Below are positions 1-57,588 of a stretch of 64,000 bases of DNA, piece after piece. Under the pieces are notes generated by a model that saw nothing but the letters and a program-made list of their open reading frames with translations, was not told the DNA's origin and ran no database searches. Both the position numbers and the translations under genes were made by a program. The stretch is taken from assembly GCA_003194525.1 (NCBI GenBank), contig NBIV01000287.1, forward strand, positions 1-64,000, written 5' to 3'. The first letter of the stretch is position 1. The number at the start of each line of letters is the position of its first letter. The DNA is from Gracilariopsis chorda. Lineage: Eukaryota > Rhodophyta > Florideophyceae > Gracilariales > Gracilariaceae.

Positions 1-2782
1 CGCAAAGGGTATCTGTGCGCCCCCGTTAAGACGGGCACGAATCTGGGCACAGAAAGGATCCTGCTGTTGTTCACGGATCATTTCCTCAGGGGATATGGGA
101 ACAACCTGGTCATCCGGAGGATCCGTAGGGTTTGCAGCCAGAATATCGTCACAGATGTCATCCCCATTCACGTCTGGGTCGTCTCCTTCCGTTCCCTCCG
201 GGGATTGTGCCATGAAAACATGGTATTTCCAGATCGTCGACCGGTTCGGTTTCCGCTGATGTTCCTAAGCGCGATAGGGCGTCAGCCTGAGTATTCAGGG
301 ATCCCTTCTTGTAGAGGACATCAAATGTAAATTCCGAGAGTCGGAGACGCCAACGCATGAGGCGGCCCGACGGTTCTCGAATTTCGAGTAGCCAACGGAG
401 AGCCGAGTGATCGGTGTGAACCTTGAAATGGTTACCCATAAGGTATGGGCGAAGCGTTGCCAACGCCCAAACAACAGCAAGACACTCCTTCTCGGACACC
501 GAGTAGTTGCGCTCGTGAACGTTCAACGAACGTGACCAATATCCGATCGGATGTCTTTCTCCTTCTTCCGTGACTTGAAACAACGCACAACCCACCTGGT
601 GGGCACTTGAGTCAGTATCCACTTCGAAGGGTAAGTCCGGGTGCGGTAAGGCCAGAACTGGCGGGGACGTTACAGCGTCGACAAGAGACGAGAATGCTGA
701 CGACTCAGCCTCGTCAAAGACGTCCAGTTCGGTGGGTTGTCCTTTCCGGAGGAGTGCGTTAAGCGGTGCTGACAAGTCGGCGAAGTTCGGGACGAATCGG
801 CGATATACATTGCAAAGTCCTAGGAAGGATCGAAGCTCCGTTTGATTAGTCGGATGTTTCGCCTCTCGAAGTGATTTCACTCTTGCTTCATCGATTGAAA
901 GCTGTCCGGGGCGGATGATGTGCCCCAGATATTTTACCGAATCGGCGCAGAACTCACACTTTCCCAGCTTCAGGGTGATGCCTGCGTTGCGGAGCACTGT
1001 CAAGACTTCCCGGACATGGGACAGGTGATCGTCCAAGTTATTGGAGAACACTATAATGTCGTCCAAGTATACCAGACAGCTGGTCCATTTGAACCTCGCC
1101 AAGAGGATATCGATTGCCCGTTGGAATGTAGCTGGGGCATTCGTTAGTCCAAACGGCATTCGCTTAAAGCGATATAGTCCTTGATGGCACACAAACGCGG
1201 TCTTATCACGATCTTCTTTCCTAATAGGGACCTGCCAGTATCCCGAATTGGCATCGAGGGTAGTGAACACCGTTGCGCTCCCCAGGGAGTCAATGTACTC
1301 GTCCATTCGTGGAATCGGATAGACGTCCTTGACAGTAACCGCATTCAGGCGGCGGTAATCCACACAGAAACGCCATGATCCATCGGCTTTCGGAACAAGG
1401 ACAACAGGAGAAGCCCAAGGGGATTGTGCTGCTTCGATAACTCCAGCTCGCAGCATCTTCTCCACCTGAGATTTCTCTTCCCCCCTTGCTTTAGGGCCTG
1501 CCCGATACGGGTGCTGTGCAATAGGCCGTGTATCCGGCAACAAATCAATCCGATGTTCGGTTACCCCTATCGTCCCCAGGGAACCGTCCCACATGGCGGT
1601 AAAGTCCCTGAGCATGTCACGAAACTTCTCACGATGAGATTCATTAATGTGATCCAGGTCCAACTTATCCAAAGCCTGTTCTGGGTCTAACGCAGTATCT
1701 GCCGATGCTGAAGTCGTGCTCTTCTGAGCTTCTTCGACAGTCGAATCTGAACTTTCCCGGGCGGAATCCAACGGAACGAACGGGACCTCCTCCCCCTCCT
1801 TAGGGTCTTGTATTCCGAGAACGTCGGATATCGGAATCTTTGTAGGAAGGATAGCCAACGGATGCGGAAGCATGTTGCCCAGGACCTGGTTTTTAACCAA
1901 CCACTGAGTGGTAGTTCCGAGGTTAGCAACGAGAACCTTAAAGGGTTTGTCCGGCTCGACGGATACGATCCCATTTGCTAATGCGAGACGGCGCTGTTCG
2001 TAGAGCGAGGGGAGCGGTTGAACAACCTGCAACCCGTGGTGTTTGGATGTTACTGAGAACCACACCTGAGATTCCTTCGGGATCGAAACTGGTTCCGCGA
2101 CGCGAATCTTCGTAGATGCTCGATCCACATTGGACGCTTCCTGAGCAGCAGGTAAAGGTACCCGTTTACGGGAGGCGTGTCGCAAGGGCTTCCGTACAAT
2201 CGGGATGGTCGAACCGTTGGCCAATTCTACGGATCTGGAGCGAGGGCGGATAGCTTCCACGAAGCGGTCACAGAAATCACAACCGAGGATGACCGGTGCA
2301 GCAAGAGAATCGCATACGATGAAGTCCAACTTCACCACGTAGGTGCCTAGTCTGAGTACCAGAGGAATTGTTCCAAGAGTCTGGAGCGGGTTGTTATTAG
2401 CGTCCGCCAGATCCAGACTTGGACCAATTCGAATGCATTTCCGCATGGTGGGTGGAATAATCCCGATATTGATCAGGTTCGGAGCGGCACCTGTATCCAG
2501 GACAGATAACTGACGAACCATGAACTGGTTAGAGAGACCGAGGTCACTATAAACTTTATAGTTCCTCTTGGCCATTACCAAAACTCGATCCGGGATGCGG
2601 AGGTTACGGGACCGTATCCACGGACGACGCAGAGCCACTAAGTGGTCCGAGCTCACGTCTTCTTGAGCCAGTTTCCTCGTAAGGATTTTGGCAGGGGAGC
2701 GAAGCGGTGGCGCCTCAGGCGTCTTCAACTTCGGCTTGGAAGACACCCCTCCCGTGGGGGAGACTCCCAAGATTAGTTTTTC
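1..2782 (-). pseudogene. pol: E1 pol: protease, RT, RNase H, start of integrase; frameshifted
   Basis: Continuous reading frame from the gag stop to 158, with retropepsin (VLDTGAAPN, near residue 92), reverse transcriptase (WRFCVDYRRLN, FGLTNAPATFQ, catalytic VYLDDIIVF) and RNase H (EVDTDSSAHQVG, SEKECLAVV, HTDHSALRW). At about 217-222 a run of four T (minus strand) replaces the three found in E2 at the same codon (PCFM). This extra base throws the frame into a short tail ending at 158. In the corrected frame, homology to E2 (ISPEEMIREQ, IRARLNGG) continues to base 1. There is no ATG at the frame start; the frame is open back into gag and is -1 relative to it, so a Gag-Pol fusion by frameshifting is the likely mode of expression. 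The integrase core is outside the window. Confidence 0.92.
2773..2782 (-). promoter_or_regulatory. Candidate -1 frameshift site at E1 gag/pol junction
   Basis: On the minus strand the last gag codons read AAA AAC TAA, preceded by G (heptamer GAAAAAC, 2782-2776). Pol is open in the -1 frame through this point (GAA AAA CTA ATC). The first slip position is G rather than A, so the heptamer is a near-canonical X XXY YYZ site. The same layout occurs in E2 and, in canonical form, in E6. Confidence 0.55.
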
Positions 2783-4815
2783 GGGACCGAATCGACCGCT
2801 GGGTGCGGCTGAGCCCGTTCCGAAAGGTTAGGGTTGTTACCGTTCGCGGTTTTCGCGGCTTCTCGAGCTTGAGCATTGTGGACCGCAGCCTTTGCGTCTT
2901 CATACGAATTACTCGGGACACGAGCCTTATGCTCCGGTGGGAGATTCTCATAATTTCCCACGATCTTCCACATCTCGCAAATGGGGAGGGTACACTGCGA
3001 CGCAGTATGACCTTCAAGGTAACAAATGTAGCAAATCAGCGGGGCTGAACGTGTTCCGGTGGCGTGGGACATCATTCCGCGGTGCTGAGGGTGTTGTGGT
3101 TGGAATGCTAGTTGCTTCGGGTTGGACCATCCCGGGCGGGAGTGTCTTGTGGCGCTCGACGCGTAGGCTAGCGGGGCTGGGGGAACCCGACCGGGGTTTG
3201 CGTAAAAGGCCGGATCTACCACGGGGGGTGTAACCGTGGACGGCAGTTCCGAGGTTGCCAACGACTGTTCAAGACTGCCAAGATACTGGATGTTATCCGC
3301 AAATCCGGAAGGTGGTCCCGGGTTAGGGAGAGATGCCGAGGAAGCCTCGTTCTCGACGAAGAGAGCCTTCGACGACCGACGCCTCGGGTCTCTCGCTCTG
3401 AGGGTGTCACCCTCAGCCTGCGCGTACTGGACCAGTTCCAGATACGTCGCCTTGCGCTTCTCTTCCCTGTAGCGGGACACCAGTGCCCTGATACCAGGAT
3501 CTAAACCATCCACCAGCATGGAGCAACGCTCAAAAGCGGTAAACACATTTCCACAACGATGAAACGCTTTATTCAAGCGAGTTGAATACGACGTTTCCGT
3601 TTCACCAGGCTTCTGTTTCGTATCGCGAACCGCCACGATGGCTTGACTGATTGCAGTTCCCGTCGCGTACGACCTGAGCAGGTAGTGTACAGCCTCGGGC
3701 CAGCACGTAACACCTCCTTCTGAGGCCCTGGACGAACCCCTGACCGAGTTGTACTGATCTTCAGCCATTCCTGAAAGAAAGTAGGGCAACGCAACGTATG
3801 CCTGCGCCTCACTCATTTCGAGTACGTCTGCTTCCTGCACAAAGCGGGCCAGAAAATCCAACACGAGGATCGGATCTTCACCGGAGAACTTCTGCTTAAG
3901 CATCGTCACATTCATACGACGTATGAGATCCTTCACCCGACCGGTGTCTCTCGAACTTCGAGTGCCCGAAGAGTCTTCCAATCGGTAATAACGATAGGAC
4001 AACAGCTTCCTGTAAAGGGGATTCGTCGGTTTCAATTCCTTCAAGCCGACATGACGGCGACCTTTCTCCCGCGCACGGATTGCTCCATGGGAGGTGTAGG
4101 TAGCCCTCGAACTAGGTTCTTCTCCGCGACGGCGGCCTCTCCCTTCACGCGATGATCTCGAAGACGAGCTACTCGAACTTGTTTCCGAGTCGGAACTTGG
4201 CGAAACTTCATAACGATGAACTCTCTTTCCAGGGTGACGGGGGAGGTGACTGGAGCGGTGTTGGGTTGAGATGACCTTCACTTCCTCCTGTCTCGGAGCG
4301 TTCAGGTCTTCTCTGAGCAACGCTTCCAGCGTGTCCATACGTCCGGTTACCCGCATCATATGGGTTTTAACTTCCTCCACGAACTCCCGATATCCTTCTA
4401 CGAAGGCAGCCGGAGTACCCAGACACTCCAGAATGGAATTCACATCAGCTCTCAGGAGACGAATATCTCCCGAATAATCCCGAGCCAGGGAGTCACTCCA
4501 TCGCCGTTCCAACTCGGTAACTTGCTGCGAGAGGGAGGCGTGGGCCACATTGGCAATGTCGATTCTCGACTCGAGGAGATGGTACTTAGGCGACCCGGGT
4601 CTCGGGGGGACAGCCGACGGCGTTTCGACCACCGGAGGTGGCGTAGTGGCCACAGCTGTCACGGCTCGAGGCACCGAGGTTGCCGATGGGATTCCTTGGG
4701 ATTCCAGACCGACGGCATTGGTAAGTAGTTGTTCCGGAACGGACCTTCGTGATCTCGCCGCTGCGGCGTTCCGTTGCGGACCATTCCTAGGGGAACTCGG
4801 AGCTGTGGGTAGCAT
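2773..4815 (-). CDS. gag: E1 Gag polyprotein (680 aa)
   Basis: Starts at ATG 4815, 150 nt inside the 5' LTR. Order: variable N-terminus with a VVETPSAV motif shared with E3, a coiled-coil-like helical segment (about residues 75-165), a Ser/Arg-rich linker (about 205-245), then the conserved retrotransposon-gag core (LKELKPTNPLYRKLLSYRYY; GEDPILVLDFLARF; AEDQYNSVRGSSRASEGG; ETETSYSTRLNKAFHRCGN). A CCHC zinc knuckle (CYICYLEGHTASQC, residue 595 on, spacing CX2CX4HX4C) lies near the C-terminus. The protein should form the particle and bind element RNA. The reading frame is intact and ends with TAA directly after an A-rich heptamer. It corresponds to the 664-aa Gag of E2. Confidence 0.93.
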   Translation of the reverse strand: MLPTAPSSPRNGPQRNAAAARSRRSVPEQLLTNAVGLESQGIPSATSVPRAVTAVATTPPPVVETPSAVPPRPGSPKYHLLESRIDIANVAHASLSQQVTELERRWSDSLARDYSGDIRLLRADVNSILECLGTPAAFVEGYREFVEEVKTHMMRVTGRMDTLEALLREDLNAPRQEEVKVISTQHRSSHLPRHPGKRVHRYEVSPSSDSETSSSSSSSRSSREGRGRRRGEEPSSRATYTSHGAIRAREKGRRHVGLKELKPTNPLYRKLLSYRYYRLEDSSGTRSSRDTGRVKDLIRRMNVTMLKQKFSGEDPILVLDFLARFVQEADVLEMSEAQAYVALPYFLSGMAEDQYNSVRGSSRASEGGVTCWPEAVHYLLRSYATGTAISQAIVAVRDTKQKPGETETSYSTRLNKAFHRCGNVFTAFERCSMLVDGLDPGIRALVSRYREEKRKATYLELVQYAQAEGDTLRARDPRRRSSKALFVENEASSASLPNPGPPSGFADNIQYLGSLEQSLATSELPSTVTPPVVDPAFYANPGRVPPAPLAYASSATRHSRPGWSNPKQLAFQPQHPQHRGMMSHATGTRSAPLICYICYLEGHTASQCTLPICEMWKIVGNYENLPPEHKARVPSNSYEDAKAAVHNAQAREAAKTANGNNPNLSERAQPHPAVDSVPKN

Positions 4816-11759: not shown

Positions 11760-14168
11760 CTACAACGCTGTAGTCATGTTGTTTCTCGCTATTCTGCTGT
11801 ACACTGTGGCATAGTCGGAAGCCCATTGAAGATCTTCTGCCCAGTGAGCAAGAGCATGGCGCAACTTCGTTGTTATCAATGCCGTGCTTATGTTTGCTTC
11901 TCTTCTCTTCCTTGCAAAAAGGCTTGTTATGTCTAGTTGCCTTGCAGGTGAACTCTCAGCACCTTCACAGCATCCCTTGTGGCAGGCAGTTTTCATGAGT
12001 TGCGTTTGAAGAGATATGCTGCTCTTAATTATTCCCTGCAACTTGTCAACAAATTTCCCCTTCGACTTGACTCCGCGCTTCACCTCGTGAGATTGGGGGG
12101 CTCCTGCGCTTCCCTCTGTTGCACTTTTCTTAATATCGTAAATAGACGACATATTTCCTGCGTAATACATAGTGACTCCATCTTGAGCATTTGCAAAGCA
12201 TATGACGTCAGAAAATTCGACCAAGCTTCTGATGCTTTCACTTGTAGTTGTGTCAAAGAACCTTAGAATGAGCTTCTGTCCTGCAGCACTTGACGTAACA
12301 CCGGCAGGTTCCAATCCACTGTTAATCGAAAGGAAATGGAATACAGTTTTCTTTGATGCATTGTTGGAAGTGTTTTTTGTAATAGACTCCTTGTAGGCCT
12401 CCAGAACGTATTTCAACATATGACTGACAAAGCCATTTCCAACATAAAGCAGAACAAAGGCTTCTGATTCGATTCCAAGCTTTACTCTCTCTTCCTTCCG
12501 AAAGACTTTGCGAACGAAAGCCAGTTTCTTTGTACTGCTCGCCAGAGGATGTACAACTATTCGGTCTGGAGTGAACCCGTGTTTGGCTAGCCGACTTTTC
12601 ATAGCCGACGTTGGTACTACAAGATAGTCGATATAGGATTCAAAATTTCCAAAAAATGACATAAACCCTTTTTGAATCCATTCGAGATCACCGTCATCTA
12701 CGAACGCCGCCAGTACGACGTCCTTCAGCTGCACGGATAACCATGGGACAGTTAGGTATCCTATCTGCGATCGGTCCAATAGAACAATTTTCGCATTCCG
12801 ACTTTCAATAATGTACTTGAAAAACCTTGGAGAGTCAACCAAACGCATCAGATACGGTAGAACAAAAATATCAGTTGTATAGTGCTCTAGAACTGGTCTC
12901 AAATCTGTGCTACTTGTTTTTGACGAAGTGCAGACCACGGTCACGCTACGTCCTTCCGCCACTAGCGTCCTGACAAGATCGACGTACATAACATTTTTCT
13001 CAGTAACAGAAAAGGAATCCATTACAAGCAGAATTCCTCGCTCAGATGTCAGAAAGTTTTTGAAAGAGAAAATCGATTTTATCTCCTCATCCTCAGTGAA
13101 AAGATTTGGCGCCAGAGCCGGGAATGGTGTGAGAAGGGGTTCATACTTTTGTTGAATCAGCAAAGTTGCTTTTTCATTTTCTGCGTACAAAAGTGGCCAT
13201 TTGGTTTCTCGTAAACGTGTGGGGTTTTGTCTGTACCAATGCATAACTTCTGGAACTGTCGATCCCCATTTTCCGTGGGCTGCAAGACATAACAAAAATT
13301 CCCAATCCTCCATCCCTCCATTGAATTCGCTTTCGAATTTGCAGTTACTTTCGAAGAGAGCACTTGAGCGGACAACGTATCCGTTTGTTAAAGTATTAGA
13401 GTATAAGTTCCCTGCGCCATTATGAAACCCCCGCCACCATGTATAGTTTCGCTCTCCGAATCCCGTACTGTAAAACCCACACATGTGAATGTTTGTAGAC
13501 GACTCCAACATGAGAACACATTTCTCGTATCCAGTCAGCTCGAACAGATCATCGTCATCTATGAACGCAAAGTACTTGGTTGGGTTTTTCCTAAGGTATT
13601 CCAGACCGGCTTGTCTACAGTGAGATACGCCTTCATTATCAGTGTTATTAACAATAATTATTCTTTGGTCGTCCATTTTCGCTTGCCTCAAACGATCCAA
13701 ACTTTGTACAGAATCAGAATGATCATCAACAATAACCCATCTCAGAGATCGGAGACTTTGTTCACGTATCACTGTTGCCGTCTCGTGAAACACTTCCTTG
13801 GTATTGTGGGTAGCTGTCAGAACGGTTAGAATTGGGTCACTGTCTTCTTCCCCTTGAGTATATGCCTGTTTAGCTCGCAAAGAATACTGTTGGTCTGGTC
13901 GCGATGGGCTTATGGGTGTGCGACTGTAGTCAATCTCTGAGTTTGGGATACCCAAAGAATATAAATGATCAACAATGCAACCTTTAGATTCTACCATTTT
14001 GTCTTTGGTAGGATTGTGCGCCGCTCTACGCGCCAAAATATAGACTGCGCATATAGTCCCAAACATAAGAAACGCATGTCTGATGTATCTTTCGTCACGA
14101 AAATATTGGAAACCATGTTTTCTTCGGCCCATCAACTTCAACTTCGAAGCCTGGTAGCGACTTGTCAT
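11760..14168 (-). CDS. Two-domain glycosyltransferase (GT2 + GT-B), type II membrane protein, 802 aa
   Basis: I start at ATG 14168; the frame is open 11 codons further but without ATG. An N-terminal membrane anchor (about residues 32-47, FLMFGTICAVYILA) follows a basic cytosolic stretch, the layout of a Golgi type II enzyme. Residues about 110-330 form a GT-A family 2 domain: LTVLTATHN, VIVDDHSDS (148-149 DD), a FIDDDDLF metal/donor site (204-207) and the GGMEDWEF acceptor/base motif (ED 287-288). Residues about 375-600 look like a GT-B glycosyltransferase: GILLVMDSF, VTVVCTSS, FVVP-type turns (YLVVPTSAMKSRL) and VLLYVGNGF. The C-terminal 200 residues are not recognised. Specificity cannot be read from the sequence. 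Intronless. Divergent from the pyruvyltransferase fusion gene, with 642 bp between start codons. Confidence 0.85.
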   Translation of the reverse strand: MTSRYQASKLKLMGRRKHGFQYFRDERYIRHAFLMFGTICAVYILARRAAHNPTKDKMVESKGCIVDHLYSLGIPNSEIDYSRTPISPSRPDQQYSLRAKQAYTQGEEDSDPILTVLTATHNTKEVFHETATVIREQSLRSLRWVIVDDHSDSVQSLDRLRQAKMDDQRIIIVNNTDNEGVSHCRQAGLEYLRKNPTKYFAFIDDDDLFELTGYEKCVLMLESSTNIHMCGFYSTGFGERNYTWWRGFHNGAGNLYSNTLTNGYVVRSSALFESNCKFESEFNGGMEDWEFLLCLAAHGKWGSTVPEVMHWYRQNPTRLRETKWPLLYAENEKATLLIQQKYEPLLTPFPALAPNLFTEDEEIKSIFSFKNFLTSERGILLVMDSFSVTEKNVMYVDLVRTLVAEGRSVTVVCTSSKTSSTDLRPVLEHYTTDIFVLPYLMRLVDSPRFFKYIIESRNAKIVLLDRSQIGYLTVPWLSVQLKDVVLAAFVDDGDLEWIQKGFMSFFGNFESYIDYLVVPTSAMKSRLAKHGFTPDRIVVHPLASSTKKLAFVRKVFRKEERVKLGIESEAFVLLYVGNGFVSHMLKYVLEAYKESITKNTSNNASKKTVFHFLSINSGLEPAGVTSSAAGQKLILRFFDTTTSESIRSLVEFSDVICFANAQDGVTMYYAGNMSSIYDIKKSATEGSAGAPQSHEVKRGVKSKGKFVDKLQGIIKSSISLQTQLMKTACHKGCCEGAESSPARQLDITSLFARKRREANISTALITTKLRHALAHWAEDLQWASDYATVYSRIARNNMTTAL

Positions 14169-14810: not shown

Positions 14811-17165
14811 ATGGAGAGCATTAACTCTCGGCAATCAAACTTGGGTTTAGACCCTAAAAATATTTCTGTTCTGTTTTCTCTTGGGTTTGTCTGGTGGGCC
14901 GGAAACAATCTATATGCTCTTGATGCTCATGCTCTGTTTCAAAAATTTCCGTCCAAGTTCTTGTTCGTAGATTTAGCCTTTGCACAAATCCTTCTCGGCA
15001 TAGTAATGTCTTTGACTATACCAACTGAGTCTCTTTTACTTTTCACCAAGAGTGGCAGTGATGCACTTGCAGAGCAAAAATCTGGACTTCTGACCATTCC
15101 AAACTTAAAGCGTGCGGCGTTGTTACTTGCTATTGGATTCTTTCACATTACTGGAACAGTGTTAACTAACTCGTCATACAAGCTTTTAGGTTCCACCTCT
15201 ACTCTCGTTTGGAAACTCACAGAGCCACTTGCTGCAATGGTTTTAAAGCGTTTTATTCTAGGTGAAAACACGTCCTTTCTTTCGTTTACGGGGATGGCTC
15301 TTGTGCTAGGTGGTGTTCTTCTATTTTCAAAACACACACTGGTTTTTGCCACTGCGTCACCAATCGTGATCGCTAACCTGTGTTTTCCACTCAGAAACAT
15401 CCTCACGAAGCGAGATCAAGCACAGAGCCAGTACATTAATACAAAAGAGAGGTTCCTTCTTATTCAACTATACAGTCTACCATTTTGTTTGGTCGCTTTA
15501 TTGTATAAATACATTATGGTTGGCACAGATACGGATTCTTTCCAATCCATTCTGAGTAATGCAGTGCTATTCAATTCCTACCAGTTTGCCAGCATAGCTT
15601 TGCTAGAAAGGATGGACGCACTCACGCACTCACTTGCTAATACTCTGAAGCGATTCACGGGAATCATCCTCTCAGCCATTGTCATTGGTGATTCATTTGT
15701 GACTTCTCATATCATAGCACTCATAATGGCGGCTTTGGGATTCCCAATATACGTGTTAGGGAAGGAAAGCGATGATAAAAGGAGAAAGAACATGAGGATC
15801 AAGCTGTTCTCTATTCTTAAAGTCATGGTTTTCATAATAATTGCGGCCTTCTCAGCAAGCAGTGCATTTTGGAAAGCAACAGGTATTACTAATCCAAAGC
15901 TGAGCCAGAAAGAAGACCTTGCTCTCAGAGAAAGATCTCCCTCAGAGGAATTTCGTCTTGAAACACCAATGTCAGCTGATTCAGCGTTCGCAATTCAAAG
16001 AGACTCGGCTGAATTCCAGTCAGCGCGGAAACAACATGCAATCCTCATCCTTGAGCGTTATGTTGGAAAAAAAATTTCGTACAGTTCGTACGAAGAAGCA
16101 CTAGCAGACGCTGGCGATAACCATGGGAATCTGGTGTGGGTCTATGCTGCTCTACAACGTTTGATAGACTTCTCTGGCTCACTGATTTGCGAAACAACAA
16201 AGGAGGAATGCGTCAGGAACAGTACTTTTGCTGGTCGGCGTTTTGTCCATTACAGACCAACAGCCAATTTGCTAAATACGAGGAGAGCTTTTGCATATGA
16301 CGATGTGCGTGATGTTTTACAAAGCGGTGATGTCTATCTTTACGTGGGAATAGGGATACAGTACTTGTTCAGAGATACTGTAAAATGGGATGATCTAAGC
16401 CCTGGGACAAAAATAGAAACATCGGTCGACACGGTTCAGTATCCTGCAGATACTTACATGTTTTTGAACTTAATGCAGAAACATCGCAATCCAATGCTTG
16501 TAAGAGGGGATTTCACATTAAGAACTAATCAAAATGCAGGTTATCACTACGGCGTATCAACGGGGTGCCCAAGTCTATTCATAAATCAAGCTGTACGGGC
16601 TGGTCGTTTATTGCAAAGGAAGTACGACGCTCTAAAATCGCGAGTCGGGGATCTCAGCTTAAAAATTGCTATCAACTACAAAGCAAATGCTAATATTTCA
16701 TCCTTTCTCTTGGATGTTTTGAATAGATATGAAAACAGTCTCATCTATGCGCAAGACGTGGAAGATTACGGTAAGCTTCAACAGATGGGGGTACCATTTG
16801 ACCGAACACGTCTCTTTTCGGATGTTGAGGAGTGGATGCAAAGTCTAAGTGAAATGGATGTTGCATTTGGTGTTCGCATCCACGGGAACATGGCAGCGCT
16901 AGGCACCGGGACCCCTGCACTTGTGATTGCCATGGATCATCGCGTACTCGAATTGACGGAACGAATGCGTGTGCCTTACGTGACAACTTATGACGTCCGA
17001 CTAGTCAATGGTGTTGATGTCGCAAGCTTGGTATCAGAAGTGGGGTTCAACGGAGAAGAGTTTGATCGCAATAGATGCGTGACTGCACGGCTATACGAAG
17101 AACAAATGGCAAAGTATGGAATGGAAGTACACTCTACGTTAAGACGTATATCAAGTATTTGTTGA
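14811..17165 (+). CDS. TPT-type transporter fused to polysaccharide pyruvyltransferase, 784 aa
   Basis: I start at ATG 14811; the frame is open back to 14712 without ATG. Residues about 20-355 form a multi-pass transporter of the triose-phosphate translocator/nucleotide-sugar transporter class. Seen: SLGFVWWAGNNLY in the first helix, VWKLTEP (K135) where the family has the KxxEP motif, LRNILTKRD, and SLANTLKRFTGIILSAIVIGD (K280, R281), a TPT-family signature; these Lys/Lys-Arg positions bind the substrate phosphate in the known TPT structure. Residues about 430-780 match the polysaccharide pyruvyltransferase family: GDNHGNLVWVY, MLVRGDFTLR, YGVSTGCPSLFIN, and the hallmark FGVRIHGNMAALGTGTPALVI (R689-G692). 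That family transfers pyruvate from PEP to sugars as a ketal. The fusion suggests a Golgi protein that imports PEP and uses it in the lumen. Substrate is inferred; a nucleotide-sugar carrier remains possible. A final hydrophobic helix (about 337-352) links the domains. Confidence 0.88.
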   Translation: MESINSRQSNLGLDPKNISVLFSLGFVWWAGNNLYALDAHALFQKFPSKFLFVDLAFAQILLGIVMSLTIPTESLLLFTKSGSDALAEQKSGLLTIPNLKRAALLLAIGFFHITGTVLTNSSYKLLGSTSTLVWKLTEPLAAMVLKRFILGENTSFLSFTGMALVLGGVLLFSKHTLVFATASPIVIANLCFPLRNILTKRDQAQSQYINTKERFLLIQLYSLPFCLVALLYKYIMVGTDTDSFQSILSNAVLFNSYQFASIALLERMDALTHSLANTLKRFTGIILSAIVIGDSFVTSHIIALIMAALGFPIYVLGKESDDKRRKNMRIKLFSILKVMVFIIIAAFSASSAFWKATGITNPKLSQKEDLALRERSPSEEFRLETPMSADSAFAIQRDSAEFQSARKQHAILILERYVGKKISYSSYEEALADAGDNHGNLVWVYAALQRLIDFSGSLICETTKEECVRNSTFAGRRFVHYRPTANLLNTRRAFAYDDVRDVLQSGDVYLYVGIGIQYLFRDTVKWDDLSPGTKIETSVDTVQYPADTYMFLNLMQKHRNPMLVRGDFTLRTNQNAGYHYGVSTGCPSLFINQAVRAGRLLQRKYDALKSRVGDLSLKIAINYKANANISSFLLDVLNRYENSLIYAQDVEDYGKLQQMGVPFDRTRLFSDVEEWMQSLSEMDVAFGVRIHGNMAALGTGTPALVIAMDHRVLELTERMRVPYVTTYDVRLVNGVDVASLVSEVGFNGEEFDRNRCVTARLYEEQMAKYGMEVHSTLRRISSIC

Positions 17166-18173: not shown

Positions 18174-21100
18174 ATGCATGAAAAGCAACTCTCCTACATC
18201 GGTTCATTGCCACTCTTTGTGAGACGGTTCTCATTGCTTTTAGACCGATATTTCCGGAAACATGGATGGTCTCCGACCTCGAATTATAAGTTCTTTAGAC
18301 AGCGCATATTGAAATGGAGCCGCTGTTTAGCTGCTTTGTGGATTCTGTTATACATTGGATCCCAGCTGCACGCGACAAGACACAACCCGCAGTATGCCTT
18401 TTACTATAATCCAGATATTGACTACTCGTCAAAGTTTTCGTCTGAGCGTCATTCGGTTCACGGTTCCCCAGAAGCATTGTTCACCTTCATAATACCATGT
18501 TTCAAGCAAGTAGACTTCTTGAAGCAGTCTATAGATAGTATTGCGTTCCAAAAATGGTTTCGGAAATCAAATAATAGGCTTCGTACTGATGTACAAATCA
18601 TTGTTGTCTTCGACGAGCCACAAACAGAGCAACTCATGAGCTTTTGCACAGATTATATGAACAGGATGAGCAGTAATCCATCCCGAATGCGGTTAGAGTT
18701 TAAGTTTATATTTAAAAGGAATGGGGGTCTTGCAGATGCTCGAAATGCGGGCTTTCAGCATAGCATTGGCAAATGGATTATTACTTTAGATGCAGATGAT
18801 ACGATATTGAAGAACTTCTTTCTTAAGTTCGAAAGGATTATTTCAGATCATGATATCTCTAATCAACCTCTCAGTAACGCACTAGATCATGTGAGCATCA
18901 TAGCTCCTTCTTTGCTTATTGGAAATACGGTATGGCCAAATGAAGATCTCAAGACAACAAATGTTCTGTATCAGAACTTGTTTCACTGTTCAGTCATAAT
19001 TAACAGAAGCTTCTTGGCTAGTTTCTGGGGCAAGGATAAGTACTGCCAATGGTGGCAGGAACCGTACTTTTTCTTTGGGTGGGAGGACTGGAACTTTTGG
19101 ATGCGCAGCAGACTGCACATAGAGCACGTTCTATACATCAAGCAACCGTGGGTCTTCTATTCCAACGGACAAATGCACCGACTATGCGTTGAGCACAGAG
19201 CGTATTGCCTTGCACTGTTTCGAGTTGCTAACTCCGATTTCTACAGTCAGACTAAAATATGGGAGGAAATGCGTATTCTCGTTACAGACAGCGCCGGAAG
19301 GGCGTTTGAAGCACACCCCCGGTGGAACAACACATTAGAGAAATATGGAGATTCCTTTCCAGTTCTTCTGGTTTGGGCGTCCCTATTTTCACTCCGACAG
19401 AACAAAACTCGGCAAGCTCTGAAGCAATACGTGCAACTTTTAAGTACGCACAAGGCAGATGACCATGACCTTATTGAAACATACGGGAGATTCTTACATT
19501 CACACATTATTCAGAACTCGCCGAGAACCGTACTGGAGTCTATAGTGTACCAGAAGATGAGAGAAACGCTGTTTTCTAAGGGGTCGAGAATTTTGTTCTG
19601 TGTACCAGAAGACACTCAGCCGTCAGTACTGGAACAATTCTTGCAGAGGATTCCACAACTTCAGATTCCTGAGGCTAACAATAGGGTGACAGTCATGGTT
19701 CAGAATCAGTCTCACTCTTCGCCAGGGCCATCTTATCGAGTTGATATATATGACTTGGACGTGAATTCAGAAGCTATAGAGAGGAAAGTATCGATTTCGC
19801 TCAGCGAGTTTGGAGCTTTGTTTTCTATCCTTCACACATCCCGAGTAGGCTTCGTCAGTACAAGCATGACTCGCATTTTACTCGAAAACAGAAAGGAGAA
19901 TTTCATTCCAGACAATGAGATATATCGCATATCCAAGGGGCAATGGGTTAAATTTGGTTCAGACGATCTTATTGTAGGGTGGAAAGCACGAACAATGATG
20001 CGAGCTTTGGCTCTAAGCCGTAAAGAAATTCCAAAAGCTGAATTACTGAATTATATACAGCATGACAGTTGTAGCGATCTCTTTGGAAACAGAATAGACA
20101 CCAATTTTTGTCATTCTTTGCTCATTTTGTACGACGCTCATGATTATTCCATACCCGAGATCATCGAAGCAGTTCTCTCGATTTCCACGCATGTACCGAA
20201 AACAGGCATCTTCTTTGAAAAGGAGCACTTCCAAAACGAATATGGACCTCTAGTAAGACACAGACGAATATTGAGAGCATTCGTTAACAGCGGGTTCGTG
20301 CCGAGGCAGAAACTATCTGAACTCCGTATCAGTCCTTTAGAAAATGTATTCTTCTGGTGGACTTCAATGCTTCTCGTTGAACAATCTTTCGACTTTGAAA
20401 AAAGGGTACTTGAATCGCGAACAAATTCTATTCATAAATTTCTTTCGAGAAATGCTTGGACAAAAACAGAATCATGTAGCGAAAAATTCGTAAGCAGAAG
20501 ACCCCAAGGGGAGCTAATACATTTTGCGTTTTCAGCTCCTGTCAGTGATGATCTGAAAATGTTTTCAATCACTGCCGTTGGAAGCGCTCTGCACTTTCAT
20601 TCAAAAGCGCGTTTGATGGTCCATACAGATTCTGTTGAGATTCGGGAAGCCGTTAGAGCAGCTTTAAATCATGAGCACAGGAAAAGAGTTATCTTCTCCC
20701 CAATATGCGATACATTTCTCTCTTCACTTCATCCCTCGAAGTCCATTCAAGAGTTTATCCATAATCACGAGCATCATGATTTGTTTGCTTCTCATAGAAA
20801 ACACTTGTATAAGTATCTGGTTCTCTACTTTTTGGGTGGGCTCTATGCTGACGAGGGTGTTATATTCTTAAAGAGCAGTACGGCTCTTCGTAATTTCGTT
20901 GTCGGAGAATCTCTTAAAAATGTGAAGGGAACAATCATGAAATTCGACCGGTGGCATAAGTTCAGTGCTGACTTGTTGGACAGCTTTCAAGATCTTTTGG
21001 TACTAAACGATACCAATGGAGCTGGAAGTACCCTTCTGCATACTTTCCTAGAAACTGGGAGCACCTCTGTTCGCCTTCTACCCCCGAGAAGCTTCTATCC

Positions 21101-21323
21101 AATTTCTCAGACGAATTGCTCGAAGTATTTTTTGGACAAAATTTCAAGGTTACAATTTGACAGAGTAACAAAAAAATCATTCGGAATACACATGACGAAG
21201 GACATGTTAAGTGAGGCCACTATAGAAGGAGCGATAGTGAGAAAGCATTCTGTGCTAGGACGACTTTCTGACTGTGCTGGGTGTCGCTCAACTCTTAGCT
21301 ATTGCCCACTGCAAACTGTTTGA
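18174..21323 (+). CDS. Two-domain glycosyltransferase (GT2 + GT32/Gb3-synthase-like), 1049 aa
   Basis: ATG 18174 directly follows an in-frame stop. Basic N-terminus, membrane anchor about residues 50-64 (RCLAALWILLYIGS), then a family 2 domain (about 100-345): FTFIIPCFKQ, IIVVFDEPQ, RNGGLADARNAGF, ITLDADDT (DxD 206-208) and FFGWEDWNFW (acceptor ED motif near 304). Residues 450-775 are not recognised. The C-terminal 270 residues resemble DXD-containing GT32/alpha-1,4-glycosyltransferases: KARLMVHTD, HLYKYLVLYFLGGLYADEGVIFLKS, and PPRSFYPIS plus FGIHMTKDM, as in the Gb3-synthase C-terminal region. The expected D-x-D in GGxYxDxD is D-E-G here (D893), so the metal site is altered; this domain may be impaired or use another ligand. 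A Golgi type II enzyme of glycan assembly, same strand as the pyruvyltransferase fusion, intronless. Confidence 0.83.
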   Translation: MHEKQLSYIGSLPLFVRRFSLLLDRYFRKHGWSPTSNYKFFRQRILKWSRCLAALWILLYIGSQLHATRHNPQYAFYYNPDIDYSSKFSSERHSVHGSPEALFTFIIPCFKQVDFLKQSIDSIAFQKWFRKSNNRLRTDVQIIVVFDEPQTEQLMSFCTDYMNRMSSNPSRMRLEFKFIFKRNGGLADARNAGFQHSIGKWIITLDADDTILKNFFLKFERIISDHDISNQPLSNALDHVSIIAPSLLIGNTVWPNEDLKTTNVLYQNLFHCSVIINRSFLASFWGKDKYCQWWQEPYFFFGWEDWNFWMRSRLHIEHVLYIKQPWVFYSNGQMHRLCVEHRAYCLALFRVANSDFYSQTKIWEEMRILVTDSAGRAFEAHPRWNNTLEKYGDSFPVLLVWASLFSLRQNKTRQALKQYVQLLSTHKADDHDLIETYGRFLHSHIIQNSPRTVLESIVYQKMRETLFSKGSRILFCVPEDTQPSVLEQFLQRIPQLQIPEANNRVTVMVQNQSHSSPGPSYRVDIYDLDVNSEAIERKVSISLSEFGALFSILHTSRVGFVSTSMTRILLENRKENFIPDNEIYRISKGQWVKFGSDDLIVGWKARTMMRALALSRKEIPKAELLNYIQHDSCSDLFGNRIDTNFCHSLLILYDAHDYSIPEIIEAVLSISTHVPKTGIFFEKEHFQNEYGPLVRHRRILRAFVNSGFVPRQKLSELRISPLENVFFWWTSMLLVEQSFDFEKRVLESRTNSIHKFLSRNAWTKTESCSEKFVSRRPQGELIHFAFSAPVSDDLKMFSITAVGSALHFHSKARLMVHTDSVEIREAVRAALNHEHRKRVIFSPICDTFLSSLHPSKSIQEFIHNHEHHDLFASHRKHLYKYLVLYFLGGLYADEGVIFLKSSTALRNFVVGESLKNVKGTIMKFDRWHKFSADLLDSFQDLLVLNDTNGAGSTLLHTFLETGSTSVRLLPPRSFYPISQTNCSKYFLDKISRLQFDRVTKKSFGIHMTKDMLSEATIEGAIVRKHSVLGRLSDCAGCRSTLSYCPLQTV

Positions 21324-38829: not shown

Positions 38830-41800
38830 TTACAGAGTCGGTAGGTCTGAGAGTCCCCGGCTGGGGTGTGGTAGTACCGTAGGTTTAGTACTCCCGGATG
38901 GTTCCAGTGTTGCAGAGTCCGTAGAAACGGGGTTGCCTGGATCCAGGACTACCTCTGACGAGGGAGGAGGGGCAAGGACAACACGATCACGGGAAATCCG
39001 TTCGTGCGTGTCGCCCATCTCTACCACGACAGTGTCGGTGTTAACAGAGATGACCTTGAAGGGTCCACCCGCCACAGGCGAGAGTTTGTGACGCTTCTCC
39101 CGTTCCGGGTTGTAGTACTCCTTCCTGATGAAGACGTAGTTATTTGCCCGAATCGGGGGGGTCTTTCCTCGCAAGCGAGCGTCAAAATCCCGCTTGTCAG
39201 CGGCTTGGGCCCGTGCCATAGACTTCCGCGCAGCGGGGACCAGCTTGGAAACCCATTGCTTCCATTGCTGCCGGTAGATACCCACAGATGGGAAATTGTC
39301 CAAGGTAGCTTGGGGTTCCAGCGCCACAGGCGGGGGTGTTCTAGATAGAACCAACTCGAATGGCGAAACTCCGGTAGTCCGGTGTACCTGCGTATTGTAA
39401 GCGTAGGCTACCGCATCAGCGTAGAGATCCCAATTCGTTGGGTGGTCAGCGACGTAGGAACGTAACGCCGCGAGTAACGTCCGGTTAAACCGTTCAACTT
39501 GCCCATTACACTGGGTGTGGTAGGTAGTCGTGAACAAGTTCTTGACATCCAGGATGCGACAATCATCCTGGAAGAACTTGCTCACGAACTCCTTCCCGTT
39601 GTCGGAGAGCACCTCCACAGGGGGACCGTAGACAAAAATCCAGTGCGTCACCAGAGCCTGGGCCACCGTGAGAGCGGTTATCCTCCGAAGAGGTACAGTC
39701 CGTACCAGCTTAGAAAAGCGGTCGTTGATGACAAGTAGAAACTTGTTTCCACGTTTTGTGGTGAGTAGTGGTCCGAGAAGATCAATTGCGATAAACTCGA
39801 ATGGCGCCCTTGCGGGGAATAGTTTCATCTTCTTCGCATTTTTGCGGAGTTTGACGCGATTCTTCGCGCATTCGCTACAAAACCGCACAGTTGCGTAGCA
39901 CTCCACCGCCATTGCGGGCCAATAGAAATCCCTTCGCAGGGTTAGGTAGAGTTTCCTCCCACCTGGGTGACCTCCAATGGGGGCGTAGTGTGATAGATGT
40001 AACACCCGCGATTGCAGGGAATGTGGTACCACAATCTGTGGGCGGGCTTCGACCTTTCTTACGAGGTAGCCTTTGTCGTTTACCCCGAAAGGGAGATCTT
40101 CACCACCGTTGATACGGGCACGAATTCTCGTACAGGATGGGTCGCCGAATTGTTCTCGGATCATTTCTTCCGGTGATACCGGTACAAAGTTTCCCGGTAA
40201 CGGGTTCTCAGATTTATCTCGCGATGCGAGTAGTTCGTCAAAATCAGCATCCTCGTCCCAGGTTTCTGGCCTAGCCTCGACGGCATGTTCCGGATCATCC
40301 GAATCTATAGCCATGAAGCATGGGACTTCATCATCCTCCGTTGGGAGTGCTTCCCCACTTGTGGGTAACCGCGATAAAGCGTCGGCCTGAGTGTTCTGCG
40401 CGCCCTTTTTATAAATGACTTGAAAGTCATATTCCGCGAGGCGGAGTCTCCAGCGCATGAGGCGTCCCGACGGGTCGGAGATATTCATCAACCCCCTCAA
40501 TGAGGAATGATCCGTGTACACGGCGAAGTGAATTCCCATAAGGTAGGGGCGCAGAGTGGTCATCCCCCATACGACGGCGAGGCACTCTTTCTCCGATACG
40601 GAGTAGTTCCGCTCATGAACATTGAGCGAACGTGACCAATAACCAATTGGATGTCGTTCCCCCTCGGGGGTGGTTTGAAAAAGAGCACACCCGACTTTGT
40701 AGTCGCTCGAGTCCGTATCTACGGAGTATGGCAACCCAAGTTTTGGGAGATGTAGGATTGGTGCTGATGTGACAGCCTCCTTCAAGGAGTTAAAAGCTTC
40801 CGATTGCTCGGGCGTAAATGTTCCCAGTTTTGGGGGGTTCCCCTTTCGCAACGACGCGTTTAGGGGCGCCGCAGTATCCGAAAAGTTCGGGATAAACCGT
40901 CGATAGACGTTGACCAGCCCCCAAAAAGAGCGCAGTTCCGTTTGAGTACGGGGTTCTTTCGCCTCAACGAGGGATTTGACTCGAGCTTTCTCGATCGCTA
41001 ACCGTCCAGGACGGATAATGTGACCCAGATACTTCACAGTATCTGTGAAAAACTCGCATTTCCTCAACTTGAGGGTCATTCCCGCATCGCGGAGTACGGT
41101 CAGCACGTCTCGGACGTGAGTGAGATGGTCGTCCAACGAGTTGGAGAAGATGATAATATCATCAAGGTAGACCAGACAGCTCCGCCACTTAAAGCGGTTG
41201 AGTAGAATATCTACTGCACGCTGAAAGGTGGCGGGGGCGTTGGTTAACCCAAATGGCATCCGCTTGAAGCGGTACGTTCCTGCGTGGAAGGTGAATGCGG
41301 TTTTGTCGCGATCCTCCTGTCTGACAGGTACTTGCCAATATCCCCAATTGGCATCAAGGGCCGTGAACACGGTGGCGTCTCCAAGGGAGTCAATGCACTC
41401 GTCCATACGAGGGATAGGGTACGTGTCCCTAACGGTCACGGCATTGAGCCGGTGGTAGTCGACACAGAACCTCCAGGTTCCGTCGGCCTTTAAAGCCAGT
41501 ACAACTGGGGATGCCCAGGGTGATTGAGCGGGCTCAATCACACCTGCGCGGAGCATCTTGTCCACTAGGGACTGCTCCTCTTCCCGAGCTTTCGGACCTG
41601 CCCTGTAAGGGGGTTGTGCAACCGGTCGCGCGCCGGGGATTAAATCGATCCGGTGTTCCGTTGCATTAATCTCGCCAAGCGAGCCATCCCACATTGTGGT
41701 GAATTCCCGTAACATTGTACAGAGTTTGTCGCAGTGCGACTCTGGCACGTGGCTGAAGTCCAGCGCTTCAAGTGCCTTTTCCGGATCAATCCGGTCATTG

Positions 41801-43143
41801 CTCGATGGAGCATTGTCCTGTGGAACCGGTGTGGTTCGCAATTCCGAGTTACTCGGTGTGTTCGACGCTGAAGTAGCGGTTTCCTCCCCCTCCTTAGACT
41901 TGACGTCTTCGGACGGCGGGGCGAACTCCTCAGAAGAGGTGGTAACTCCGAGTACATCGGCGGCTGTCATCTTTGTTGGCAGCATTCCCATAGGATGGGG
42001 GGTTACACTCCCAATTACTTGGTGTTTCACCAGATACTGGGGGTGTTTGCCAAGGTTGGCAACCAATATCCGGAAAGGAACATCCGGGGAAATGGAGACA
42101 ATTCCATTAGCCAGCGCCAGCTGGGATTTCTCGTACAACGAGGCGAGGGGTTGTATAACCCGAAGACCGTGTTGACGGGAATTTACTTGCACCCAGACTT
42201 GGGACTCAGCCGGTATAGAAACCGAGGCAGCGACGCGGAGCTTGGTGGACTCGCGGGACGCGGGCGGTGGTTCCTGCGCAGCAGGGAGCGGAACTTGTTT
42301 CCGAGAGGACCGCTTTAGCGGGCGGGGAACAATCGGAACCGACGATCCGTCGTCAAGTTCTACACGCCTGAGGCGGGGCCTGATTGCGTCGACAAATCTG
42401 TCGCAGTAATCACATCCTAGTATGACTGGTGCTGCCAATGAACGGCAAACGATGAAGTCCAACTTCACCACAGAGGTACCAAGTCTCATGACGAGGTCCA
42501 CTGTGCCCACCGTTTGTAACGGATTGTTGTTCGCATCCGAAATGTCAGGGACCGCGTCAGAGCGGATACGCGACCGCACAAGCGGGGCTAACAATGATTC
42601 CACAACAAAGTTGGGGCCTGCACCTGTATCCAGGACGGTGAGAAACCTCACCATAAACTGGGGATCAAGGCCAAGGTCGGCATAGACCTTATAATTGCGT
42701 TTGGCCAAGACCAAGACTCTACAGGGAATCCGGGGATTTTTACTCCGTATCCACGGGCGACGCAACACACCGAGGTGCGCAGAGTCCACGTCAGCGGTGT
42801 CTTTCCTCGAGAGGACTTTCACCAGGGAGCGAGGCGAGGACGCCTCGGGCGCCAACAGCCTCGTTCTTGAGGGCGCCTCTCCCAAAGGGGAGACTCCCTC
42901 AGTTAGTTTTCGCCTTCGGCGGTGGGTTGGTTTCCTCGACAACGAGTGCTTCTTCCCGTTGACGGGGGTTTCTATCCGCATAAGCGGGGGTTGCAACGGA
43001 TGGTTGCATGATCTCCCGAATCGGGGTGTAGGAAGCTTGCCGCGCACGCGAGGTCTGTGGTAGGGCATGGGAAAAGTCCGTTTAAGCACGGAGGTAGAAA
43101 GCCGTCGGGACGGAACGTTTCTCCTCTGGAGTGAGGGCCTCAT
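38830..43143 (-). CDS. pol: E2 Pol polyprotein, 1437 aa, intact
   Basis: The open frame starts (ATG 43143) inside the end of gag and runs to TAA at 38830. Domains: retropepsin (LTVLDTGAGPN, D172; DFIVCRSLAAPVILGCD); RT about 500-690 (WRFCVDYHRLN, FGLTNAPATFQ, VYLDD 658-662); RNase H (SVDTDSS near 809-811, E853, TDHSS D878); integrase with H2C2 zinc site (HLSH, GGHPGG, CSEC about 1049-1092) and catalytic D1121 (AIDLLG), D1181 (LSDNGKEF) and E1217 (NGQVERFN). All catalytic residues are present, so the enzyme set looks functional. The first roughly 80 residues are Arg/Pro-rich and overlap what in E1 is the Gag tail, so the true Pol start may be a frameshift at 42906-42912. No chromodomain within this ORF. 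Confidence 0.95.
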   Translation of the reverse strand: MRPSLQRRNVPSRRLSTSVLKRTFPMPYHRPRVRGKLPTPRFGRSCNHPLQPPLMRIETPVNGKKHSLSRKPTHRRRRKLTEGVSPLGEAPSRTRLLAPEASSPRSLVKVLSRKDTADVDSAHLGVLRRPWIRSKNPRIPCRVLVLAKRNYKVYADLGLDPQFMVRFLTVLDTGAGPNFVVESLLAPLVRSRIRSDAVPDISDANNNPLQTVGTVDLVMRLGTSVVKLDFIVCRSLAAPVILGCDYCDRFVDAIRPRLRRVELDDGSSVPIVPRPLKRSSRKQVPLPAAQEPPPASRESTKLRVAASVSIPAESQVWVQVNSRQHGLRVIQPLASLYEKSQLALANGIVSISPDVPFRILVANLGKHPQYLVKHQVIGSVTPHPMGMLPTKMTAADVLGVTTSSEEFAPPSEDVKSKEGEETATSASNTPSNSELRTTPVPQDNAPSSNDRIDPEKALEALDFSHVPESHCDKLCTMLREFTTMWDGSLGEINATEHRIDLIPGARPVAQPPYRAGPKAREEEQSLVDKMLRAGVIEPAQSPWASPVVLALKADGTWRFCVDYHRLNAVTVRDTYPIPRMDECIDSLGDATVFTALDANWGYWQVPVRQEDRDKTAFTFHAGTYRFKRMPFGLTNAPATFQRAVDILLNRFKWRSCLVYLDDIIIFSNSLDDHLTHVRDVLTVLRDAGMTLKLRKCEFFTDTVKYLGHIIRPGRLAIEKARVKSLVEAKEPRTQTELRSFWGLVNVYRRFIPNFSDTAAPLNASLRKGNPPKLGTFTPEQSEAFNSLKEAVTSAPILHLPKLGLPYSVDTDSSDYKVGCALFQTTPEGERHPIGYWSRSLNVHERNYSVSEKECLAVVWGMTTLRPYLMGIHFAVYTDHSSLRGLMNISDPSGRLMRWRLRLAEYDFQVIYKKGAQNTQADALSRLPTSGEALPTEDDEVPCFMAIDSDDPEHAVEARPETWDEDADFDELLASRDKSENPLPGNFVPVSPEEMIREQFGDPSCTRIRARINGGEDLPFGVNDKGYLVRKVEARPQIVVPHSLQSRVLHLSHYAPIGGHPGGRKLYLTLRRDFYWPAMAVECYATVRFCSECAKNRVKLRKNAKKMKLFPARAPFEFIAIDLLGPLLTTKRGNKFLLVINDRFSKLVRTVPLRRITALTVAQALVTHWIFVYGPPVEVLSDNGKEFVSKFFQDDCRILDVKNLFTTTYHTQCNGQVERFNRTLLAALRSYVADHPTNWDLYADAVAYAYNTQVHRTTGVSPFELVLSRTPPPVALEPQATLDNFPSVGIYRQQWKQWVSKLVPAARKSMARAQAADKRDFDARLRGKTPPIRANNYVFIRKEYYNPEREKRHKLSPVAGGPFKVISVNTDTVVVEMGDTHERISRDRVVLAPPPSSEVVLDPGNPVSTDSATLEPSGSTKPTVLPHPSRGLSDLPTL
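42903..42912 (-). promoter_or_regulatory. Candidate frameshift site, E2 gag/pol junction
   Basis: Minus strand C GAA AAC TAA at the place that aligns with E1's G AAA AAC TAA; pol is in the -1 frame relative to this TAA. In E2 the current gag frame ends earlier (43082) in another frame, so an indel near the gag 3' end probably removed the original use of the site. Confidence 0.4.
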
Positions 43144-53962: not shown

Positions 53963-54233
53963 TGTTGACTGGTTGGGTGACTCCGATCAGCTCTCTCAGC
54001 TGCAGAGACTCCTTTACTCTTTATACAGATTGTAACTGCGTAAAACCCTGCAAAAATCACAGTACGTATGTCTATTGTAGTCTAACGAGCATGGGACCAC
54101 AAACTCAAGATAGTATATCAATACGTAGGGTCCGACACCTCACAAGAGGTATCGGGCAAAGGGACTCACGTAACTACCTTACGTGATTCCTAGACCTGTA
54201 GATAATGGCATCACGATTGCGTGTTTCTCATCA
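53963..54233 (-). repeat. E5 3' LTR (271 bp)
   Basis: TGTTGACTGGTTGGG...TTTCTCATCA on the plus strand; matches 58346-58616. Confidence 0.95.
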
Positions 54234-57200: not shown

Positions 57201-57588
57201 GTCCTATTGAAATTAGCTTTGAACACGAGATCAGATTGCAGTCCAGTTCATCGGCGAACAGCAGACCATCAAGTGTTAGATACGCAGTACGTCCTTGTGG
57301 TTGTATCACACTCAATACAACTCGTCCTTCACTCTTAGCTTGTACACGCCTTCCATCTCCAAGGGAAATGGTCCTAGGCTGTACTGGAATAAACGATTGC
57401 GATAGAGCTTGACTCCCAACCATATGGCACGTAGCACCTGAATCAATCAAGAAGCGATAACCTGGGTCTCTAAGAGCGAGGAGAGCACGATAAATGCTTT
57501 TGCCACTACCACCTTCTCTTTGATTTTGATTCCGTGAGCGGCAGTTGCGTTTATAATGGCCCTTCTTTCCGCACAGGAAACAACGGCC
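54211..57588 (-). pseudogene. pol: E5 pol: zinc knuckle, protease, integrase, copia RT, RNase H
   Basis: One frame throughout. Order: CCHC knuckle (CFLCGKKGHYKRNC), protease (LIDSGATCHMVG), GAG-pre-integrase (LWHERLGHIGRSRIRQM), integrase (FLDICGP, YSDNAKEY, PQQNGVAEWFNRS: D, D, E present), RT (WDVVQRPPN, KARLVAKG, LDVKCAFLNG, LNRSIYGLKQS), RNase H (YTDADWAGDDLDRKSTSG). The RT active site YVDD is YVKD, losing a catalytic Asp. TAA codons at 56698 and near 55414 add to the damage. The polyprotein is otherwise full length. Confidence 0.93.

Follow-up and report, generated by a model that had tools for sequence, protein, structure and literature searches.

The first 64,000 nucleotides of contig NBIV01000287.1 (C287) from the florideophyte red alga Gracilariopsis (Gp.) chorda, hereafter the window, contain a gene that joins a membrane carrier of the TPT family to a domain of the polysaccharide pyruvyltransferase family. 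The genome behind the window comprises 91.3 Mb in 1081 contigs. A single open frame, designated P0001 in its translated form, runs without interruption from an ATG to a stop codon and codes for 784 amino acids (aa). The sequence-only reading of this stretch had described an intronless open reading frame (ORF) of this make-up and had suggested a domain search as a check. That search bore out the description, with TPT (PF03151) scoring 72.5 bits over residues 24-314 (cut-off 30) and PS_pyruv_trans (PF04230) scoring 37.6 bits over residues 547-710 (cut-off 25.3). The RIHG hallmark that had been pointed out is present at residues 689-692. The features of the gene and of its two neighbours are listed in Table 1.

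Table 1. Positions in the window of the fused gene, its parts and conserved residues, and the flanking genes (TM, transmembrane; pLDDT, predicted local distance difference test).
Feature	Position	Strand	Basis
Fused ORF, 784 aa: TPT-family carrier, extra TM helix and pyruvyltransferase domain	14811..17165	+	ORF, Pfam
Carrier half, residues 15-319, ten TM helices, drug/metabolite transporter fold	14853..15767	+	
T119, phosphate-site threonine; T in 10/11 and S in 1/11 rows covered	15165..15167	+	alignments
K135, phosphate-site lysine; 11/11 rows covered	15213..15215	+	alignments
Y257; 12/12 rows covered	15579..15581	+	alignments
K280-R281 dyad; 13/13 rows	15648..15653	+	alignments
Eleventh TM helix, residues 323-357, K/R cluster at its start	15777..15881	+	model, hydropathy, charge counts
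Variable linker, residues 358-404, low pLDDT at 357-382	15882..16022	+	model, alignment
Pyruvyltransferase domain, residues 405-784, GT-B type fold	16023..17162	+	
R565, aligned to CsaB-type arginine	16503..16505	+	weak alignment; not matched in WcaK alignment
R689-I-H691, aligned to RLH motif (CsaB R306/H308)	16875..16883	+	alignments
R711, position of CsaB K328	16941..16943	+	alignments
Neighbour, 802 aa, GT2 domain and sub-threshold GT4-like match	11760..14168	-	Pfam
Neighbour, 1049 aa, GT2 and Gb3-synthase-like domains (another double enzyme)	18174..21323	+	Pfam

Conservation of the fusion

At least two PF04230 matches occur in the Gp. chorda genome, both within TPT fusions; the second fused gene (C154:55947-58343) is 50% identical to P0001 over residues 16-784. 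An NCBI protein under Gracilariopsis chorda, P0003, is named chloroplastic glucose-6-phosphate/phosphate translocator, a name that overlooks the second domain. The whole protein was used for a database search in which candidates were 0.55 to 1.75 times the query length and the 8000 sharing most words were scored; it returned 12 other proteins, the C154 paralogue among them. Both Pfam domains were found in 10 of the 12, while P0012 ends within the enzyme and P0013 begins at the ninth helix of the carrier. An additional protein, P0027, was judged by its sequence to be a fusion.

Three of the fused records are of transcript type: P0005 and P0007, which come from Trinity transcripts, and P0006, which has one listing from the Agarophyton chilense genome and another as GEZJ01004859, a transcript accession by its form. 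The two separate transcripts that had been named as an argument against the fusion are thus contradicted by fused transcript-type records in other species, none of which is a long read. In the six homologue pairs compared, both halves are conserved about equally while the linker drifts. The identities over carrier, linker and enzyme are 73/24/79% for P0001 and P0002, and 92/55/89, 82/38/82, 57/19/50, 44/9/42 and 44/11/43% for the other five pairs. As judged from these sequences, the fusion is real and conserved and is no artefact, because a second fused gene lies in the same genome and the halves are conserved against a drifting linker. Short-read transcript assemblies are able to create chimaeras, and nothing else was found in favour of an assembly or gene-model error that joined two genes; set against this evidence and the further fused records, both genomic and transcript-type, such an error is extremely improbable.

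Carrier half and membrane topology

The carrier half shares the ten-helix fold of the plastid translocator structure 5y78, is 20% identical to it, and in the alignment has K135, K280 and R281 where 5y78 has K, K and R. The phosphate-site residues (T, K, Y and K-R) are those that we take to be listed in the 5y78 paper. The claim that K135 and K280/R281 stand at phosphate-binding positions therefore held, both in this alignment and in the homologue rows. Among the 19 other TPT-family genes of the genome, the K-EP-KR combination is common only to three plastid-type genes. In a tree made without a named PPT sequence, the carrier was placed beside these three and outside the other 16, which we assume to be mostly of nucleotide-sugar type. 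Of the plastid-type paralogues, L011 is presumably PPT-like and L012 presumably GPT-like. The phylogeny thus put the carrier on the side of the plastid-type phosphate translocators, as the sequence-only reading would have it, but gave no preference for the PPT-like paralogue.

Other carriers of the family were also observed. P0014-P0020 are stand-alone carriers, 38-40% identical to the carrier half of the window by BLAST; they too have a hydrophobic stretch past the tenth helix, end 4 to 30 residues beyond it, and form a clade of their own (97/100) in the carrier tree. A further TPT-family gene of the genome, L014 (C155:73529-74431), has the KR dyad, with R replacing the phosphate-site lysine. 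It is possibly a Sly41-like carrier of the secretory pathway, and is a candidate for a separate phosphoenolpyruvate (PEP) or phosphate carrier.

In the predicted structure, the ten carrier helices are followed by the eleventh helix, a poorly predicted stretch and a confident enzyme domain. Only 14 residues precede the first helix (TM1), which begins at residue 15 of P0001, so that an N-terminal extension able to house a transit peptide is absent; in the plastid-type genes L010, L011 and L012, the TIGR00817 match begins at residue 95, 331 and 80. A hydrophobic 19-mer (mean hydropathy at least 1.90) lies between the halves in all 13 rows, that is, in P0001 and its 12 homologues, and the 12 residues preceding it carry a net charge of +3 to +5 in every row. 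In the 10 rows counted, from which three truncated ones were excluded, 10-18 lysines and arginines lie on the N-terminal side of the membrane, where the loops are longer, versus 2-5 on the opposite side. Since the eleventh helix follows a positive cluster and the counts agree with a positive-inside arrangement, the enzyme domain is predicted to lie on the trans side, which in a protein of the secretory pathway would be the lumenal side. What is new beyond the sequence-only reading is this eleventh helix, found in P0001 and all 12 homologues, and the lumenal placement of the enzyme predicted from it.

Four cysteines (C460, C467, C756 and C784) are present in P0001 and in all nine other algal-type rows, and are absent from all 15 bacterial rows; algal-type was assigned by similarity, as taxa are not given for most rows. 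Such a distribution would be expected of disulfides. An anchor-like hydrophobic stretch at the N-terminus was seen in 9 of 11 stand-alone relatives of non-bacterial type (not in P0024 and P0035), and in none of the three bacterial relatives scanned.

Enzyme half, its origin and the gene neighbourhood

In the alignments, R689, H691 and R711 of the enzyme correspond to PEP-site positions of CsaB type, and so, by a weaker alignment, may R565. Each of the 27 rows of the enzyme alignment A7 has these four residues, and the R711 position lies 22 residues past the motif arginine in P0001 and CsaB alike. The arginine aligned with R565 in the CsaB-type protein is taken here to be CsaB R148. In terms of its RxH motif and the K/R position of the PEP site, P0001 resembles the bacterial CsaB and WcaK proteins; unlike them, it misses both curated cut-offs, with 20.3 versus 213.1 bits for CsaB (TIGR03609) and 14.1 versus 399 bits for WcaK (NF007452). 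The CsaB and WcaK proteins known to us have no membrane carrier. Searching the PDB by sequence with the pyruvyltransferase (PT) half gave no pyruvyltransferase match, and 5ax7 was listed only in a second look with VIA-align, not among the 50 matches listed by Foldseek.

A scan with bacterial relatives of the enzyme half gave 69 bacterial loci, whose titles point mostly to Proteobacteria, and ORFs that match the enzyme half are present in 68 of them. In the PT tree, 27 non-bacterial rows fall on one side of a branch (100/100). The enzyme half is likely of bacterial ancestry and would later have been joined to a host carrier. When a single origin of the fusion was looked for, fused and stand-alone proteins were mixed in both trees: the fused group takes two changes in the PT tree (one change in 0% of bootstraps) and two in the carrier tree (one change in 8%). 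The rows called stand-alone may include exons or truncated fusions, as P0022 clearly is. The Alteromonas locus L058 (931-7098) has two PF04230-type genes next to each other, of which the first narrowly misses the cut-off; glycosyltransferases and a sulfotransferase-like gene lie close by.

Both proteins flanking the fusion are of glycosyltransferase type, each with one N-terminal hydrophobic stretch by eye, and such neighbours fit a polysaccharide function. This neighbourhood was not seen at the C154 fusion, which has a starch-branching-type enzyme and mobile-element genes nearby. Transfer of a whole bacterial gene cluster was considered because the neighbour at 11760-14168 has GT2 and GT4-like matches, and GT2 and GT4-type genes precede the relative of the enzyme in all three bacterial loci scanned with Pfam (L036, L058 and L064). 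It was not supported by a comparison with the ORFs of at least 150 aa in the 69 loci, where the two algal neighbours gave 2 and 4 matches versus 84 alignments, spread over 68 loci, for the fused protein. These few matches roughly span the GT2 region, and one of them (E 9e-5) is the GT2 gene of L036. Elsewhere in the window, the stretches 158-4815, 38830-45076, 54211-57423 and 60955-63998 resemble long terminal repeat retrotransposons by eye and from the ORF lists, with gag/pol-type ORFs of Ty3/gypsy and copia kinds. On the rest of C287, seven of the eight ORFs of at least 250 aa were scanned; two had no match, and the matches of the other five were of transposon or helicase type, in part below the cut-off.

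A proposed coupled import-and-transfer protein and its alternatives

Ketal-pyruvyltransferases use up PEP and release phosphate (Pi), and PEP/phosphate translocators swap these two. In the proposed mechanism, the ten-helix N-terminal half would swap cytosolic PEP for lumenal phosphate, and the eleventh helix would bring the chain back to the lumenal side. The C-terminal GT-B domain would then move the pyruvyl group from PEP onto a galactose of the growing agaran, in ketal linkage, and the phosphate freed by the transfer would be taken back out by the carrier half. We put at roughly 60% the probability that the fusion is a bifunctional Golgi membrane protein in which a PEP/phosphate exchanger is joined to a ketal-pyruvyltransferase. 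Its Golgi location, the agaran galactose acceptor, the PEP cargo and the direct coupling of both steps are what we infer. With an enzyme in the lumen joined to a PEP/Pi carrier, import and transfer could run as one cycle; that they turn over one for one, with the freed Pi as counter-substrate of a self-contained donor-supply enzyme, is a proposal rated at even odds.

The sequence-only reading was correct in what it observed; of the explanations available, the one it gave is the best and is strengthened by the topology. In its claim that donor supply and transfer reside in one protein, the fusion, the PEP-site residues and the predicted lumenal enzyme stand, while PEP is a putative cargo. Its statement that red algal galactose carries pyruvate ketals agrees with what is described for Gracilaria agars in the accessible text of two reports (PMC7511586, PMC10741836). 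Several points weigh against the bifunctional reading, here and in the following paragraphs. In the literature searched, pyruvate is not reported for agar from Gp. chorda itself, and transport, enzyme activity and localisation are all predicted. The full model has a predicted template modelling (pTM) score of 0.60, and the relative placement of the halves is therefore not trustworthy. The four cysteines are missing in P0037 and P0038. P0007 and P0008 begin some 75 and 55 residues further upstream, so that a targeting peptide is possible in some homologues.

Triose or hexose phosphate as cargo would be equally compatible with the sequence. The carrier might move one of these, or phosphate alone, with PEP entering the lumen by a separate transporter and the fusion serving placement or Pi export. 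The tree leaves the carrier unplaced among the three plastid-type genes, where its position is weakly supported (80/39 and 75/12) and its stem is long (4.3-4.8). Its profile scores the GPT-like L012 highest and not the PPT-like L011 (75.5 versus 54.6 bits), L011 is without an equivalent of Y257, and L014 offers another KR-bearing gene. The carrier, at 52.6-56.2 bits, does not reach the TIGR00817 cut-off of 317.9; the three plastid-type genes are likewise below it, at 253-292 bits. Against another cargo, the homologues covered retain the phosphate site, and the only reaction we know of for the PF04230 enzyme family consumes PEP and produces Pi, the very pair of the PEP/Pi translocators. A different cargo is accordingly rated unlikely, though it is the strongest of the alternatives.

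A carrier that has lost transport and is a mere membrane anchor or Golgi-retention module would be in keeping with the stand-alone enzymes, most of which apparently get by with one TM anchor at the N-terminus that the fusion might have replaced. This is quite improbable, because an anchor would not require a carrier about as conserved as the enzyme, nor K135, K280 and R281 that are invariant among rows down to about 40% identity. It is just as doubtful that the C-terminal domain is a GT-B enzyme using another donor and no pyruvyltransferase. The fold comparison ties Pvg1p with UDP-sugar 2-epimerases, and Pvg1p is not among the 50 Foldseek matches listed. The CsaB and WcaK cut-offs are missed, and R565 meets an arginine in a weak forced CsaB-type alignment but a glycine of WcaK. 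On the acceptor side, equivalents of CsaB R207 and Pvg1p D106 were not placed by the alignments made. Against another donor stand the PF04230 score and the four residues kept throughout A7, and an R at the K328 position left CsaB active, according to the accessible part of its report (PMC10435577).

The bifunctional reading differs from the known systems mainly in uniting their parts. In fission yeast, Schizosaccharomyces pombe, PEP is supplied to Pvg1p by Pet1p and Pet2p, as far as the accessible text of the reports goes (PMC4872226, PMC6801904). These are separate proteins, whereas the Gp. chorda protein is one chain; its enzyme half is 11% identical to Pvg1p over 247 aligned residues and is much closer in sequence to bacterial proteins. 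Unlike the plastid translocators (TPT, PPT, GPT), the Gp. chorda protein has no long extension ahead of TM1, and it has an eleventh helix and a C-terminal enzyme. In Gracilaria changii, the transcript of a polysaccharide pyruvyltransferase, GC_3116, falls under sulfate deprivation (-2.04), and in G. salicornia deprived of sulfate no such transcript was identified; the accessible description mentions no transporter domain (PMC5402284). GC_3116 and the Gp. chorda fusion are probably in the same gene family. In its section 10, the Gp. lemaneiformis genome paper states that pyruvyl transferases are needed for agar and reports no such gene there (PMC5970526).

No description of a carrier-pyruvyltransferase fusion was found in the literature searched, which lies outside most subscription papers. 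Within that literature, the entry of PEP into a lumen where polysaccharides are pyruvylated is described only for fission yeast, and red algal galactan pyruvyltransferases appear as annotations only. A gene with both functions would give work on agar and carrageenan chemistry, in which pyruvate ketals add charge, a defined target, and the fusion would offer a simple system for testing direct coupling of transport and glycan modification. If the bifunctional reading is true, the protein would be a covalent PEP counterpart of the partnership between nucleotide-sugar transporters and glycosyltransferases.
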